NCBI GenBank assembly: GCA_025774865.1
Contig: JALGZO010000540.1
Location: forward strand, 1 to 6,204
Length of the DNA stretch: 6,204 nucleotides
Direction of reading: 5' to 3'
DNA from: a bacterium
GTDB lineage: Bacteria; ARS69
Part shown: positions 1,079 through 6,204 of the stretch, one piece after another
How positions within the stretch are numbered: the first letter of the stretch is position 1
Layout: each line of letters starts with the position of its first letter
The notes under the pieces: generated by a model
The model's database searches: none
Told to the model about the DNA's origin: nothing
The model's input: the letters and a program-made list of their open reading frames with translations, nothing else
Position numbers and translations under genes: made by a program

Positions 1079-1270
1079 TCACGAGCGGCCGCTTCGACGA
1101 CTTCCAGGCGCGTCGCCCCTGTCGCGTCGTCCGCGCTCCTCGCGCACCGCCTTGCGCAGCACGTATTCGATGTGCCCGTTGACGCTCCGGAGCTCGTCCG
1201 CGGCCCAGCGGCTCAGCTCTTCCCAGAGCTCCGGTGACATGCGCAGCAGAAACGCCTTCTTCTTCGCCAC
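1079..1270 (-). CDS. Small ribbon-helix-helix (Arc/CopG-type) DNA-binding protein
   Basis: This 63-residue protein has the order of an RHH domain: a short strand (KAFLLRMS, residues 5-12), helix A ([15 protein letters not shown], 13-27), a turn RSVN (28-31) and helix B ([14 protein letters not shown], 32-45). RHH proteins dimerise so that the paired strands enter the DNA major groove, and most act as repressors or antitoxins. The tail (46-63) is rich in Arg, Gly and Ser, is probably disordered, and may add non-specific DNA contact. The start is GTG at 1270-1268, preceded on the minus strand by a GAGGGG ribosome-binding site with a spacer of about five bases. No ATG lies near the conserved N-terminus. 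The gene sits 33 bp downstream of the SPFH gene on the same strand, so the two are almost certainly cotranscribed. From memory, this RHH type is often found next to this SPFH subfamily. No toxin gene is adjacent, so a classical toxin-antitoxin role is unlikely. An autoregulator of the operon is the simplest inference, with the 2183-2212 palindrome as candidate target. Confidence 0.85.
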
Positions 1271-1303: not shown

Positions 1304-2167
1304 TCAGTAGAGGGAGCCGGCGTTCACGACCGGCTGCGCATCCTGATTGCCGCAGAGCACGACGAGCAGATTCGATACCATGTTCGCTTGTCGCTCGGGA
1401 TCGAGCTCGACCAGGTTGCGCTCCGCCAGGTGCGTCAACGCTCCCTCCACCATGCCCACCGCGCCCTCCACGATCTTGGCACGCGCGGCGATGATGGCGT
1501 CGGCCTGCTGGCGCTGGAGCATGGCGCCCGCGATCTCCGGCGAGTACGCGAGGTGCGAGAGGCGCGCCTCCGTCACCTTGACGCCGGCGCGCCCGAGACG
1601 ATCCGCCAGCTCTCGCTCGAGCTGCTCGCTCACGGTGTCGATGTCGCCGCGGAGCGAGGGCTCGCTCCCATCGGAGTCGTACGGATAGGACGTCGCGAGA
1701 TGGCGCACCGCGGACTCGCTCTGAGTCTCGACGTAGCCCTCGTAATCGTCGACGTCGAACAAAGCCTCCGCCGTGTTGTCCACTTCCCACACGACGACCG
1801 CCGCGATCTCGATCGGGTTGCCCGCCTTGTCGTTGACCTTGAGCTTCTCGCCGTTCAGGTTCCGGGCGCGGAGCGAGATCTTCTTCTTGATCGTGAACGG
1901 GTTGACCCACCAGAAGCCGTTGTCCTTCACGGACCCCGTGTACCGTCCGAAGAACGTCAGCACCGCCGCCTGGTTGGGTTGCACCACGAAGAACCCCACG
2001 CACAGCAGGCCGAACCCGAGAGCTCCGAGAATCCCGAGGATGATGATCCCGGCGTTGGAGCCCATCGCTCCCCCGATGACGAGGAACACGGACAGGATGA
2101 AGATGGCGATCGTGAGCATCAGCATGAGGCCGCCGGACGCGGGTCGGCGGCGCTTTTCGCGGGTCAT
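1304..2167 (-). CDS. SPFH (band 7/stomatin-like) membrane protein with two N-terminal TM segments
   Basis: This 287-residue protein begins with a basic stretch ([10 protein letters not shown]), then two hydrophobic segments (about residues 14-34 and 39-62). The SPFH/band 7 domain follows (about 62-235), opening with [20 protein letters not shown] and containing [18 protein letters not shown] and the VVWEVD strand. The later part is helix-forming ([14 protein letters not shown], then [20 protein letters not shown], with [20 protein letters not shown] after it), as in stomatins and prohibitins. The protein ends in the subfamily signature [20 protein letters not shown] followed by AGSLY. SPFH proteins oligomerise into rings on the membrane and are linked to membrane microdomains, proteolysis control and stress tolerance. 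The substrate of this one is unknown. ATG at 2167-2165 is preceded by a perfect AAGGAGG at five bases. It is the first gene of a two-gene operon with the RHH protein. It is not a flotillin, since the long flotillin coiled coil is absent, and no NfeD-like partner is present. Confidence 0.92.
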
Positions 2168-2181: not shown

Positions 2182-2210
2182 TTGATACCGGTATGATATC
2201 ACCATAGTAT
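2182..2210 (+). promoter_or_regulatory. Possible divergent promoter for the FecR-VIT-vWA gene
   Basis: On the plus strand TTGATA (2182-2187, five of six to the -35 consensus) is followed after 17 bases by TAGTAT (2205-2210, four of six to the -10 consensus). It overlaps the leftward promoter and the palindrome. If used, it would give a leader of about 130 bases before the ATG at 2351. The -10 match is weak and part of the resemblance is a by-product of the palindrome, so this is tentative. No better plus-strand promoter was seen between 2213 and 2350. Confidence 0.25.
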
Positions 2211-2212
2211 CA
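2183..2212. promoter_or_regulatory. 30-bp palindromic candidate operator over the SPFH promoter
   Basis: The block reads TGATAC-N5-TGATATCA-N5-GTATCA. The outer arms TGATAC (2183-2188) and GTATCA (2207-2212) are exact inverse complements. They are centred on the same point (between 2197 and 2198) as the inner perfect palindrome TGATATCA (2194-2201). The two half-arms match at 10 of 15 positions. The left arm and the inner site also form a direct repeat (TGATAC, TGATAT) with an 11-bp period, about one helical turn, which suits side-by-side dimers of an Arc/MetJ-type RHH protein. The RHH protein encoded by the downstream operon is the natural candidate ligand, but this is inferred from symmetry and position. 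Confidence 0.62.
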
Positions 2213-2289
2213 GCCTCGTCAAGGGTCGTGGTCCTCTCGAGCCCCTCCCGCGCTCCCCCGGGAATAAACCCCTCGCCACGCCGGTATGA
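2188..2289 (+). repeat. Pair of CCGGTATGA direct repeats in the divergent intergenic region
   Basis: CCGGTATGA occurs at 2188-2196, inside the candidate operator, and again at 2281-2289, 93 bp to the right. Both copies are closely followed by a TGATA-like element (TGATAT at 2194 overlapping the first copy; TGATAA at 2291-2296 after the second). The second copy lies about 60 bases before the start of the FecR-VIT-vWA gene and could be an auxiliary binding site for the same regulator. A nine-base match could be chance, but it is less expected in such GC-rich DNA. Confidence 0.35.
2193..2222 (-). promoter_or_regulatory. Sigma70-type promoter of the SPFH-RHH operon
   Basis: Reading the minus strand, a -35 box TTGACG (2222-2217, five of six to consensus) and a -10 box TATCAT (2198-2193, five of six) are separated by 18 bases. 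The -10 is preceded by TG plus one base (TGATATCAT), giving an extended -10. This AT-rich element stands out against the GC-rich surroundings. Transcription would start near 2186-2187, a short way before the strong ribosome-binding site. The 2183-2212 palindrome covers the spacer, the -10 and the start point, so a protein bound there would block RNA polymerase. The assignment rests on sequence match alone. Confidence 0.7.
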
Positions 2290-2350: not shown

Positions 2351-5300
2351 ATGGAGGAGGCCGCCACCGGCAGAAGCTACTGGAGAGAGGGAATCGACGA
2401 ATTGGCAACGAAGCTTCGGGTGAGCATTCGAACGGTAATCCTGCTTCTCGGTGCTGCGGCAGTGCTCACAGGCGTCCTGACCCTCCAGCCACCGGCGCCC
2501 GCCGTTCCGCCGACCTCCGGGCCGGCCACGTTCCACGACGGCGAATTCCTGGGAAAGGTCGTTGATCGCGAGGGCAACGCACAGGTGCGAGCTCGGAACC
2601 GGGAGCGCTGGGACGTCGCGGGTGAGGCGCGTTCCCTCTTGCCCGGGGACTGGGTGAAGACGGGCTCGCGCGGGGCCAACGCGATCGCGTTGCAGCTGTC
2701 CCGCGGCGCGCGGCTCATCCTCGGCCCGGCGGGTCTCCTGGAAATGGTGGATGCCGAGACCGTCAAGCTGTTGCGCGGGGAGCTCGAGGTCGTGGCGGCG
2801 GACGGCGGCGAGCTGCGGGTGGAGGCGCCCGCGGGCAAGCCTCTTTCGATTCGAGGTACCCGGGTCGTGCGCGTCCGCGAGTCGCACCTCCCCGCCGATC
2901 TCGAAGTGCTGAAGGAAGAGCCGGCGTGGCTGAAGGGATACAAGAACAATGCGTCCACCGAGGCGATGGGGTCGCTGCTCGCGAACGTCGACGGGCGCAA
3001 CGTGCCGCTCACCATGGGATATCACAAGGTCACCGTGGACATCCGGGATCAGATCGCGCGAACGGTGGTGGAGGAGTCGTTCGTCAATCACACCCACCAC
3101 GTGCTCGAGGGTGTGTTCTATTTCCCGCTTCCGGGCGACGCGTCGATTTCCGGATTCGCCATGTGGATCGGCGACGAGAAGGTCGAAGGGGAGATCGTCG
3201 AGAAGCAGCGCGCGAGAGAGATCTACGAGACGATCCTGGCGGAGAAGCGTGACCCCGGGCTCCTGGAATGGACCGGGGGGAATCTCTTCAAGGCGCGCGT
3301 CTACCCGATCGGATCCGAGAAACGAATCCAGATCACCTACACTCAGGTGCTGCCGAAGGTCGGGGACACCTATTCCTACCACTACGCGCTTCGCAGCGAG
3401 CTGACCCGGCTCACGCCGCTCGAGCGTCTCGAGATCTCCGTCGAGATTTCCTCGGCGCAGGCTCTTTCCTCGGTCACCTCACCCACGCACTCCTGCCGCA
3501 TCAACACGACCGAGCACGCGGCGCGGATCGAGTTCTCGGCCGAAGACACGACTCCGCAGCGCGACTTCGAGGTGCGGATCCAGACTCCGTCGAACGGCAG
3601 CCCGGTGACGATGGTTCCGCACCGCCGCGGCGACGAGGGGTACTTCCTGCTGCTCGTGGACGCCCCGCCCGAGGGGGAGGCCGATCGCGATTCGGCGCCT
3701 CGCGACGCTTCGCCCTTCGACTGCGTTTTGATCGTCGACACCTCGGGGTCGATGGCGGGTCCGCAGCGGGAGACCCAGCTCGCGATCCTCGAGGCCTTCC
3801 TCGGCGGTCTCGGCTTTCGAGACCGTTTCCAGCTTCTGACGGTGGACACCGAAACGCGGGCGGCGTTCGACGCCCTCGTGGTGAACGACTCCGCCAGCCG
3901 AGAGAAAGCGCTTTCGTTCGTCCAAGCGCGCCGACCGCTCGGGTGGACGGACCTCGAGTCGGCGTTTCGGGCGGCGTTCGACGAAGCCGGGAAGGAGACC
4001 CACCTCATCTATATAGGGGATGGCGTGGTCACCCGCGGAGATACGGATCCCGCGGCGTTCCTGTCCCGCGTCGAACGCCTCGGGAAGAACCGGGGCACCG
4101 TTCATACGGTGGCGCTCGGGAGCTCTCACGAACCGCTCGTGATGGGGGGCCTGGCGCACATCGGCGGTGGCACTGCTCGCACGATCACGGAAGCGGGCGA
4201 CCCGGCGCTCGTCGCGCATCGGCTGCTTCGCGACATCACGACTCCCCGGGTCCGGGATCTCGAAGCGTCGTTCTCCGGGATCGATGTCGCCGCGGTGTAT
4301 CCGGATCGGATCTCGAACCTGGCCGCCGGCACTCAGGCCGTGATCGTCGGCCGCTTCGATCCCGCGTTCGGTGACGCGTCGGGTGAGGTGCACATTCGCG
4401 GACGTTTCGAAGGAAACGAGCTGAGCTACCGAGTCCCGGTGTCGCTCGAGGAAGCCGATCGGGGGAACTCCTTCATTCCGCGGCTTTGGGCGCGCCGGCG
4501 GCTCGATCATCTTCTCCGGCAGGGGAGAAGCCCCGGGATCCGGGAGGGGATCATCGCTCTGTCCGAGGACTATCAGATCATCACGCCCTATACGTCGTTC
4601 CTCGTGCTCGAGAGCGAAGAGGACCGGGAACGATTCCGGGTCAGGAAGCGCTTCCGGATGCGCGACGGCGAGGAGTTCTTCGCCGAAGGGCGCGATCGTG
4701 CGGAGTTCGAGCTGACTCGTGAGCAGATGCGACTGGCGCGGCTCTGGCGGTTGCACCTGCGCGAAGGAATCCTGCGAGAGCTCCAGGGAATGAGTCGCGA
4801 TCTGACCGAACAGTTGCGCGGACCGGACGACGGCTCGCTGGCGTGGCACGGAGACGCCTTCGCACTCGGGGTCGCCGGCAGCATCCGCGATAGCAACGGT
4901 CGCTTCTACGACGGTCTGGCCCGGAGCCTGAGCAGTCTGAACGGCGAGGTGGAAGAGGGCTCCGAGGAGCTCGAGCTCGACGCCGACGAGGTTGCTCGCT
5001 TGCCGTCGAGGACGGAATCCGAGGACGAGCTGCTCCCCGGGACCCTCGAGGAGGCGCTGGACCTCCCTCTCGCCGAACCCGAAGCCCAAGTCCCCGCGTC
5101 TTCGCCGCTGGTGGAGTACCGGCTCGATTTCAAGAAACGCGCTTCCCCCGACGCGCGGGTTGTGGGAGGACGCGCGCGGGAGGCGGCGAAGCGCGCGAAC
5201 CTCGGGAGCTTCGAGGCCTACGGACCGCCGTACTACTCCGCGGACCCTCTCGAGGCCCTGTTCCCGCACATCCCCCCGGTCCAGGCGCCGGGCGATTCGG

Positions 5301-6204
5301 ATTGGCCCGAGGAGATCCGGAACCTCGTGCGCCCGTTGAACCGGCGCCCGTGGGTGGCGGCGCTCGAAGGCGGTGTCGCAATCGATTTGACGTTCCGGCC
5401 GCGCGACTCGCGGCGTCGCCCGATCGGCGACGCGAGCGCCGAGTACCTGCTCGGCCCGAGCGCCTGGTGGACGACCACGCAGCACCTGATCGGCGACGAC
5501 GTTCGCTACGACTGGTTGCTGGATGATGAGCGGGGCGCCCTGACGGAGTCCTGGCTCCTCGGACGGGTGCAGCGGAGGCAGAACCCGGACGAAGAGGGCT
5601 GGAGCGCGCCTTTCTCTTACTATTTCCAGGATCTCGACCGCTCGTACTCGATCTACGAGCCTTCGGTGGAGGCGCTGGCCGATGGGCGGGTAATGCTGAC
5701 CCTCGGCCACGAGCGCAACCCCGAGTACCGCCTGGAGCTCCTGATCGAGCCAGAGCGGGCGCTGCTGCTCGAGGCCCGCAGCTACCAAGGAGAGAGGCTC
5801 ACCTCGGTCACGTCTTACGACGGATTCGTCCGCGTATCCGGCACCTGGCTCCCGCAGCAGATCACCACCCGCGACGCCGAGGGACGAACCACCGGCGAGA
5901 TTCGCGTGGCGTTCGGGGAGCTCTCGCGAGAGGAGCTCGATCGGCGCATTCGCGGGCGGCTCGAGAAACGAGATCGAGCCATCGTGCGCCGCGTCGAGCC
6001 CGCGAGTCTCGTGGAGGCGAAGCAGGCGATCGCGGACGGGAAAGCCGGCTTCGACGATTACTGGATGCTCCTTCGGGAGCTCGCTTCCCGTCAGGTGTGG
6101 AAGCCGGCCGCGTCGCACGTCGAGGCCATCGCGGGGCTGACGAAGGGCAAGAGAGGTGGCGACCGGATTCTACTCGCGGTGCGACTCGCATCCCGGCAGA
6201 ACGA
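2351..6204 (+). CDS. Large membrane-anchored FecR-VIT-vWA domain protein (cut by right edge)
   Basis: The frame is open from after a stop at 2294-2296 to the window end, giving 1284 residues without a stop. The order is: a short N-terminus, a TM/signal anchor (residues 29-45, VILLLGAAAVLTGVLTL), and a Pro-rich linker. A FecR-like domain follows (about 68-175; LLPGDWVKTGSRGANAIALQ, LRGELEVVAADG), then a VIT domain (about 215-345; VFYFPLPGDASISGFAMWIG, QRAREIYE). The vWA domain (about 457-640) has a complete MIDAS: DTSGS at 463-467, Thr533 and Asp557. A conserved post-vWA segment carries FIPRLWARRRLDHLL (708-722) and ITPYTSFLVLE (744-754). After these come an acidic linker (about 865-915), a beta-rich region (about 1000-1190, VSGTWLPQQI) and a helical region. 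VIT plus vWA is the architecture of inter-alpha-trypsin inhibitor heavy chains and of many secreted bacterial proteins; MIDAS binds a metal ion and usually a protein ligand. The anchor implies that most of the protein lies outside the cytoplasm. ATG 2351 has a poorly spaced GAGG; TTG 2402, after GAGAGAGGG, is a plausible alternative that places the basic n-region directly before the TM. Partner and exact role are unknown. Confidence 0.88.
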   Translation, partial: MEEAATGRSYWREGIDELATKLRVSIRTVILLLGAAAVLTGVLTLQPPAPAVPPTSGPATFHDGEFLGKVVDREGNAQVRARNRERWDVAGEARSLLPGDWVKTGSRGANAIALQLSRGARLILGPAGLLEMVDAETVKLLRGELEVVAADGGELRVEAPAGKPLSIRGTRVVRVRESHLPADLEVLKEEPAWLKGYKNNASTEAMGSLLANVDGRNVPLTMGYHKVTVDIRDQIARTVVEESFVNHTHHVLEGVFYFPLPGDASISGFAMWIGDEKVEGEIVEKQRAREIYETILAEKRDPGLLEWTGGNLFKARVYPIGSEKRIQITYTQVLPKVGDTYSYHYALRSELTRLTPLERLEISVEISSAQALSSVTSPTHSCRINTTEHAARIEFSAEDTTPQRDFEVRIQTPSNGSPVTMVPHRRGDEGYFLLLVDAPPEGEADRDSAPRDASPFDCVLIVDTSGSMAGPQRETQLAILEAFLGGLGFRDRFQLLTVDTETRAAFDALVVNDSASREKALSFVQARRPLGWTDLESAFRAAFDEAGKETHLIYIGDGVVTRGDTDPAAFLSRVERLGKNRGTVHTVALGSSHEPLVMGGLAHIGGGTARTITEAGDPALVAHRLLRDITTPRVRDLEASFSGIDVAAVYPDRISNLAAGTQAVIVGRFDPAFGDASGEVHIRGRFEGNELSYRVPVSLEEADRGNSFIPRLWARRRLDHLLRQGRSPGIREGIIALSEDYQIITPYTSFLVLESEEDRERFRVRKRFRMRDGEEFFAEGRDRAEFELTREQMRLARLWRLHLREGILRELQGMSRDLTEQLRGPDDGSLAWHGDAFALGVAGSIRDSNGRFYDGLARSLSSLNGEVEEGSEELELDADEVARLPSRTESEDELLPGTLEEALDLPLAEPEAQVPASSPLVEYRLDFKKRASPDARVVGGRAREAAKRANLGSFEAYGPPYYSADPLEALFPHIPPVQAPGDSDWPEEIRNLVRPLNRRPWVAALEGGVAIDLTFRPRDSRRRPIGDASAEYLLGPSAWWTTTQHLIGDDVRYDWLLDDERGALTESWLLGRVQRRQNPDEEGWSAPFSYYFQDLDRSYSIYEPSVEALADGRVMLTLGHERNPEYRLELLIEPERALLLEARSYQGERLTSVTSYDGFVRVSGTWLPQQITTRDAEGRTTGEIRVAFGELSREELDRRIRGRLEKRDRAIVRRVEPASLVEAKQAIADGKAGFDDYWMLLRELASRQVWKPAASHVEAIAGLTKGKRGGDRILLAVRLASRQN

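Follow-up and report, generated by a model that had tools for sequence, protein, structure and literature searches.

In the window (the whole stretch of 6,204 nucleotides analysed here), a two-gene operon encoding an SPFH protein and a small RHH protein is preceded by an array of 8-bp palindromic units set 11 bp apart. This array overlaps the predicted promoter of the operon, retains its register in relatives from many phyla, co-occurs with the RHH gene and is nearly unique within the genomes in which it was sought. We consider it highly probable that it is the operator of an autoregulated SPFH–RHH operon, covered cooperatively by RHH dimers that repress transcription. Since the same array stands before the same two-gene operon in many phyla, the RHH protein very probably switches its own operon off.

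On the forward strand, TGATAC (2183–2188), TGATATCA (2194–2201) and GTATCA (2207–2212) share one centre of symmetry at 2197.5, with gaps of 5 and 5 bases, exactly as an earlier sequence-only reading had described them. The symmetry around the central palindrome holds, but the proposed half-sites give way to three 8-bp palindromes with 2, 0 and 2 mismatches to TGATATCA, which fit better; on the minus strand, they read TGATACTA / TGATATCA / CGGTATCA, with centres 11 bp apart (Table 1). The best TGATATCA pair at this spacing in the upstream region of the window has 2 mismatches in 16 positions, a value that none of 40 dinucleotide shuffles of the region reached (mean 7.4 mismatches). A search for TGATACN5TGATATCA revealed no second exact site in the 4.7-Mb genome to which the window belongs, its two matches being both strands of one site.

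Table 1. Features of the SPFH–RHH operon and its putative operator in the window
Feature	Position	Strand	Basis or remark
RHH protein gene, 63 aa, GTG start, presumed repressor	1079..1270	-	weak Pfam RHH_5/HicB/Arc matches; Arc (PDB profile match); AmrZ and Arc folds
SPFH / Band 7 gene (287 aa); its ATG start and the putative operator are 15 bp apart	1304..2167	-	Pfam PF01145, E 7e-24
Putative operator unit 3, start-proximal	2183..2190	-	minus-strand sequence CGGTATCA, differing from TGATATCA at 2 positions
Predicted -10 element TATCAT, TG extension, 18-bp spacer	2193..2198	-	promoter prediction
Putative operator unit 2, central	2194..2201	.	perfect palindrome TGATATCA; holds most of the -10 TATCAT
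Putative operator unit 1, distal	2205..2212	-	minus-strand sequence TGATACTA, differing from TGATATCA at 2 positions; in relatives, matches at register -11 are strongly enriched
Predicted -35 element TTGACG	2217..2222	-	promoter prediction

As the sequence-only reading had claimed, the array overlaps a predicted minus-strand TTGACG-18-TATCAT promoter with a TG extension, which carries 10 of the 12 consensus bases and is one of two sigma-70-like sites found in the window, against 0.3 expected. A promoter-like TTGATA-17-TAGTAT (9/12) also lies inside the array on the forward strand (2182–2210), pointing to a VIT/VWA gene at 2351, and binding of the RHH protein could affect this divergent gene as well.

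The SPFH protein of the window contains a Band 7 domain (PF01145, 85 bits against a cut-off of 23.6), and the RHH gene starts 33 bp past the SPFH stop codon. That the operon under this promoter encodes an RHH protein is borne out by this 63-aa gene, the family profile of which matches Arc in the PDB. Pfam and NCBIfam detect no toxin domain in the operon, where the partner of the RHH protein is a Band 7 protein; the toxin gene that marks a HicB-type/type II toxin–antitoxin operon is therefore not found. Upstream of the array, an ORF of at least 1284 aa (2351–6202, forward strand), which runs off the window, encodes VIT and VWA domains and shows partial similarity to marine proteobacterial sortase target proteins. 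At the other end, positions 2–1054 of the forward strand, convergent with the RHH gene, encode the C-terminal portion of a protein that resembles penicillin-binding protein 1C and contains a BiPBP_C domain.

Taken alone, the RHH protein of the window gives Pfam matches below the gathering cut-offs. A profile of 30 RHH members, however, matches Arc entries in the PDB (E 1.6e-4 to 0.007), and individual members match Pfam RHH_5 (22/30) or Arc (12/30; E<=0.01). Judged by these matches, the RHH protein is Arc-like, and Arc is its nearest solved sequence relative. An AlphaFold monomer model predicts helices at residues 13–25 and 30–50 with high confidence, and its best PDB fold matches in Foldseek are AmrZ, Arc and CopG-type proteins, with E-values of 0.14 and up that are modest because the chain is short. 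The lone monomer contains no beta strand, so that the ribbon is not seen directly; such a strand would be expected only once it pairs within the dimer. All 81 sequences compared share R10, R28 and S29, and W22 and a DELRSxN motif are further conserved features of the family. At residue 32, the position aligned with Arc S35, every one of the 81 has A, G or S; in Arc, S35 sits at the dimer–dimer interface (PMC2812701). A residue that is always small at this position fits side-by-side dimers.

A scan of species genomes identified 76 SPFH relatives, to which a whole-genome scan added more close ones, giving 80 non-redundant SPFH loci after de-duplication, the window included. The relatives belong to Gemmatimonadota, Latescibacterota, Planctomycetota, Hydrogenedentota, Acidobacteriota, Pseudomonadota, Actinomycetota, Bacillota and others. 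In 75 of these 80 loci, an iterative profile located an RHH gene, which in nearly every case follows the SPFH gene directly and on the same strand; the loci without it are L077, L102, L109, L110 and L111. We scored an array as present where two TGATATCA units at 11-bp spacing, with at most 4 mismatches in 16 positions, occurred within 430 bases around or upstream of the SPFH start. The conservation upstream of homologous operons on which the sequence-only reading had staked its proposal was observed: an array is present in 71 of the 75 loci with an RHH gene vs none of the 5 without, and dinucleotide shuffles of the relatives' upstream regions average about 5.5–9 mismatches. In L013, for example, an exact unit is followed by a second unit 11 bp on.

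Eight further annotated loci came from a plasmid collection, seven with an RHH gene (from Deinococcota, Actinomycetota, Alphaproteobacteria, Bacteroidota and Bacillota) and one without. Six of the seven carry the array, namely those of Deinococcus sp. NW-56, Nonomuraea, Qipengyuania, Bosea (weakly), Parabacteroides and Acetoanaerobium. Within Deinococcus, D. radiophilus has the SPFH gene but neither the RHH gene nor the array, whereas Deinococcus sp. NW-56 has both. Combining the two sets, the array is found in 77/82 loci with the RHH gene vs 0/6 without it (Fisher P 8.5e-7, with related loci treated as independent), and the two appear to be present or absent together. Among 22 distant SPFH loci lacking an RHH gene, a pair with <=4 mismatches occurs in one and a pair with <=3 in none. 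The loci that have an RHH gene and lack the pair are L055, where the upstream region is cut at the contig end, L085, with just 64 bp before the start, L015, L103, which carries one exact TGATATCA unit alone, and L139 of Rhizobium. Little space separates L015 from the gene upstream, so the operator may instead be found at the operon head. In the plasmid records, the RHH genes are annotated as hypothetical protein, HicB family antitoxin or Arc family DNA-binding protein.

When 72 loci with an RHH gene were anchored on their best unit (an exact TGATATCA in 55), the mean match to the 8 bases of TGATATCA was highest at +11 (5.4, z 20), followed by -11 (4.5, z 15) and +22 (3.2, z 7); the background is 1.9, and offsets 10 and 12 are depleted. 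The 11-bp register, which unit 3 of the window also keeps among relatives, is conserved, in agreement with the earlier suggestion that such a period is what side-by-side RHH dimers would need. Contiguous units number three in 45 loci, two in 19, four or five in 6 and one in 2, so that the three-unit array of the window represents the commonest architecture; in a 13-bp control register, 66/72 loci show a single unit. Information content falls to approximately zero beyond about -11 to +19, save for a weak -35-like TTG at -20. Judging from these alignments, the general form of the putative operator is two to four TGATATCA units in 11-bp register. The literal TGATAC-N5-TGATATCA-N5-GTATCA, by contrast, has to be abandoned as a universal motif: its exact form is not conserved among the relatives and constitutes a local version, of which close variants do occur in the window's own family.

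Both the RHH gene and the array behave as dedicated to this operon. Strong matches to the RHH profile occur in 8 of 60 genomes, one in each and adjacent to the SPFH subfamily, which itself occurs in the identical 8 genomes. With one mismatch allowed, TGATATCAN4GNTATCA is found only at the SPFH–RHH locus in five genomes (G000, G001, G002, G004 and G055). A sixth, G056, contains six other one-mismatch places; we rejected a wider regulon there, since five of these lie inside ORFs and the sixth, although intergenic, is imperfect.

Some relatives carry altered operators. In the plasmid set, the lowest-scoring RHH proteins and the most altered operators are both those of Bosea and Rhizobium, two cases that hint at co-evolution of protein and site. 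Bosea L136 has an extra palindrome, AATCCATCAC-G-GTGATGGATT, at 1223–1258, and Rhizobium L139 has GATATC copies 25 bp apart, in another register, at 1217–1260. About 305 bp upstream of position 3001 in the acidobacterial locus L088, a perfect 30-bp palindrome, GTATTGCAAAGTGATATCACTTTGCAATAC, surrounds a single exact unit and stands where a clear tandem array would be. In the Hydrogenedentota loci L053 and L101, the region upstream of the SPFH gene contains TGCTATCA-N3-TGATAGCA, in which the unit is altered symmetrically so as to give an inverted pair.

We propose that each 8-bp TGATATCA palindrome would be the site of one Arc-like RHH dimer, the two-stranded ribbon of which would enter the major groove. 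With three sites 11 bp, or about one helical turn, apart, three adjacent dimers could occupy a single face of the DNA, and neighbouring dimers would touch and bind cooperatively over the -10 region and the start site. RNA polymerase would thereby be excluded, and the RHH protein would hold down its own synthesis along with that of the SPFH protein. The RHH protein as the binder, the cooperativity and the repressive effect are what we infer; repeated sites about one helical turn apart that overlap the predicted -10 of their own operon, the arrangement characteristic of Arc-type control, are found in the sequence itself.

A simpler account would regard the conserved TGATATCAT as a mere extended -10 element (TGnTATCAT) with flanking copies arising by chance. 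It draws some support from 26/72 loci: there, the best predicted -10 is TATCAT-like, falls within the anchor unit and in most cases has a -35 some 17 bp further upstream. Yet the copies at -11, +11 and +22 exceed the background by far, and the presence of the array follows the RHH gene. Moreover, the anchor unit is followed by C in 27/72 loci (TATCAC), which spoils the -10 through the loss of its key last T. Although the predicted -10 occupies an equivalent place within a unit in 40/72 loci, that place is +3 in 26 and -8 or +14 in 14, and the best predicted -10 of the remaining loci lies elsewhere. The changing position of the -10 and the C after the unit indicate that the array overlies promoters rather than being merely a promoter itself. 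The 11-bp copies, the TATCAC variants and the changing promoter register largely refute the promoter-only account, which we regard as extremely improbable.

Another transcription factor, perhaps a global one, could also bind the array, with the RHH protein acting elsewhere, given that the identity of the binding protein is beyond what sequence can show. We deem this very unlikely, because a global regulator would be expected to have many sites and not to track one gene through many phyla, whereas the array is missing from all six loci without the RHH gene, comes and goes with that gene, and has its close matches at the SPFH–RHH locus alone in five genomes. About as unlikely, in our estimation, is that the RHH protein, once bound to the array, acts as an activator of the operon, or that it is an antitoxin-like partner of the SPFH protein for which autoregulation is secondary. 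AmrZ, an RHH relative, does activate as well as repress (PMC3325190), and one plasmid record labels the RHH gene a HicB-family antitoxin; in most loci, however, the array covers the predicted -10 and start, where a bound protein would block the polymerase, and the partner is a Band 7 protein devoid of any detected toxin domain. Repression by the RHH protein itself remains the reading we favour.

Among known systems, one close parallel is Arc of phage P22, in which neighbouring dimers occupy tandem sites 11 bp apart. Like Arc, the RHH protein is small, lacks extra domains and retains a small residue at the dimer–dimer contact; Arc is also its nearest sequence match in the PDB, and autorepression would be shared. 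Arc, however, is a phage regulator with two half-sites, whereas here there are usually three palindromic units in front of an SPFH operon. The conserved W22 and DELRSxN of the RHH family are a further difference from Arc. In MetJ-type repressors, one dimer binds each 8-bp palindromic box, the tandem boxes lie 8 bp apart and a corepressor is bound. The tandem 8-bp units, each proposed to take one dimer, resemble this arrangement, but their spacing is 11 bp and the RHH protein shows no corepressor domain. AmrZ of Pseudomonas, likewise an RHH protein and the best fold match, autorepresses at a site of two half sites with a five-base linker (PMC3325190), but it recognizes GGC half sites and regulates many genes, some by activation. 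In RelB and other RHH antitoxins, autorepression involves a palindromic operator on which RHH dimers sit side by side (PMC2812701), yet RelB partners a toxin and the RHH protein described here a Band 7 membrane protein. The NfeD–SPFH operons (YuaF–YuaG and others) are similar in having two genes, one of them SPFH, but there the partner is an NfeD-type protein instead of a DNA-binding one. A 2009 survey of SPFH operons described no conserved partner common to subfamilies other than those with NfeD (PMC2636767). The searchable papers, a set outside which most subscription papers lie, contained no report on the regulation of the SPFH–RHH pair or on a TGATATCA operator, and the circuit appears to be a new and very widespread case of the RHH autorepressor type.

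SPFH proteins organize bacterial membranes, and to our knowledge little is known about the regulation of their genes. The SPFH protein might itself be a sensor, its cytosolic part binding the RHH repressor and holding it at, or releasing it from, the membrane according to membrane state. We consider this unlikely, and the tight linkage of the two genes in many phyla does no more than allow it; if true, SPFH and RHH would form a two-protein membrane-to-promoter signalling device across bacterial phyla. With an operator core unchanged from Bacillota to Planctomycetota, one SPFH subfamily appears to have a dedicated DNA-binding partner and operator across many phyla. Misleading labels (HicB antitoxin, hypothetical protein) can be replaced, the circuit is testable in cultured species, and a ready cis-element with a named candidate regulator may help to reveal when the SPFH protein is needed.
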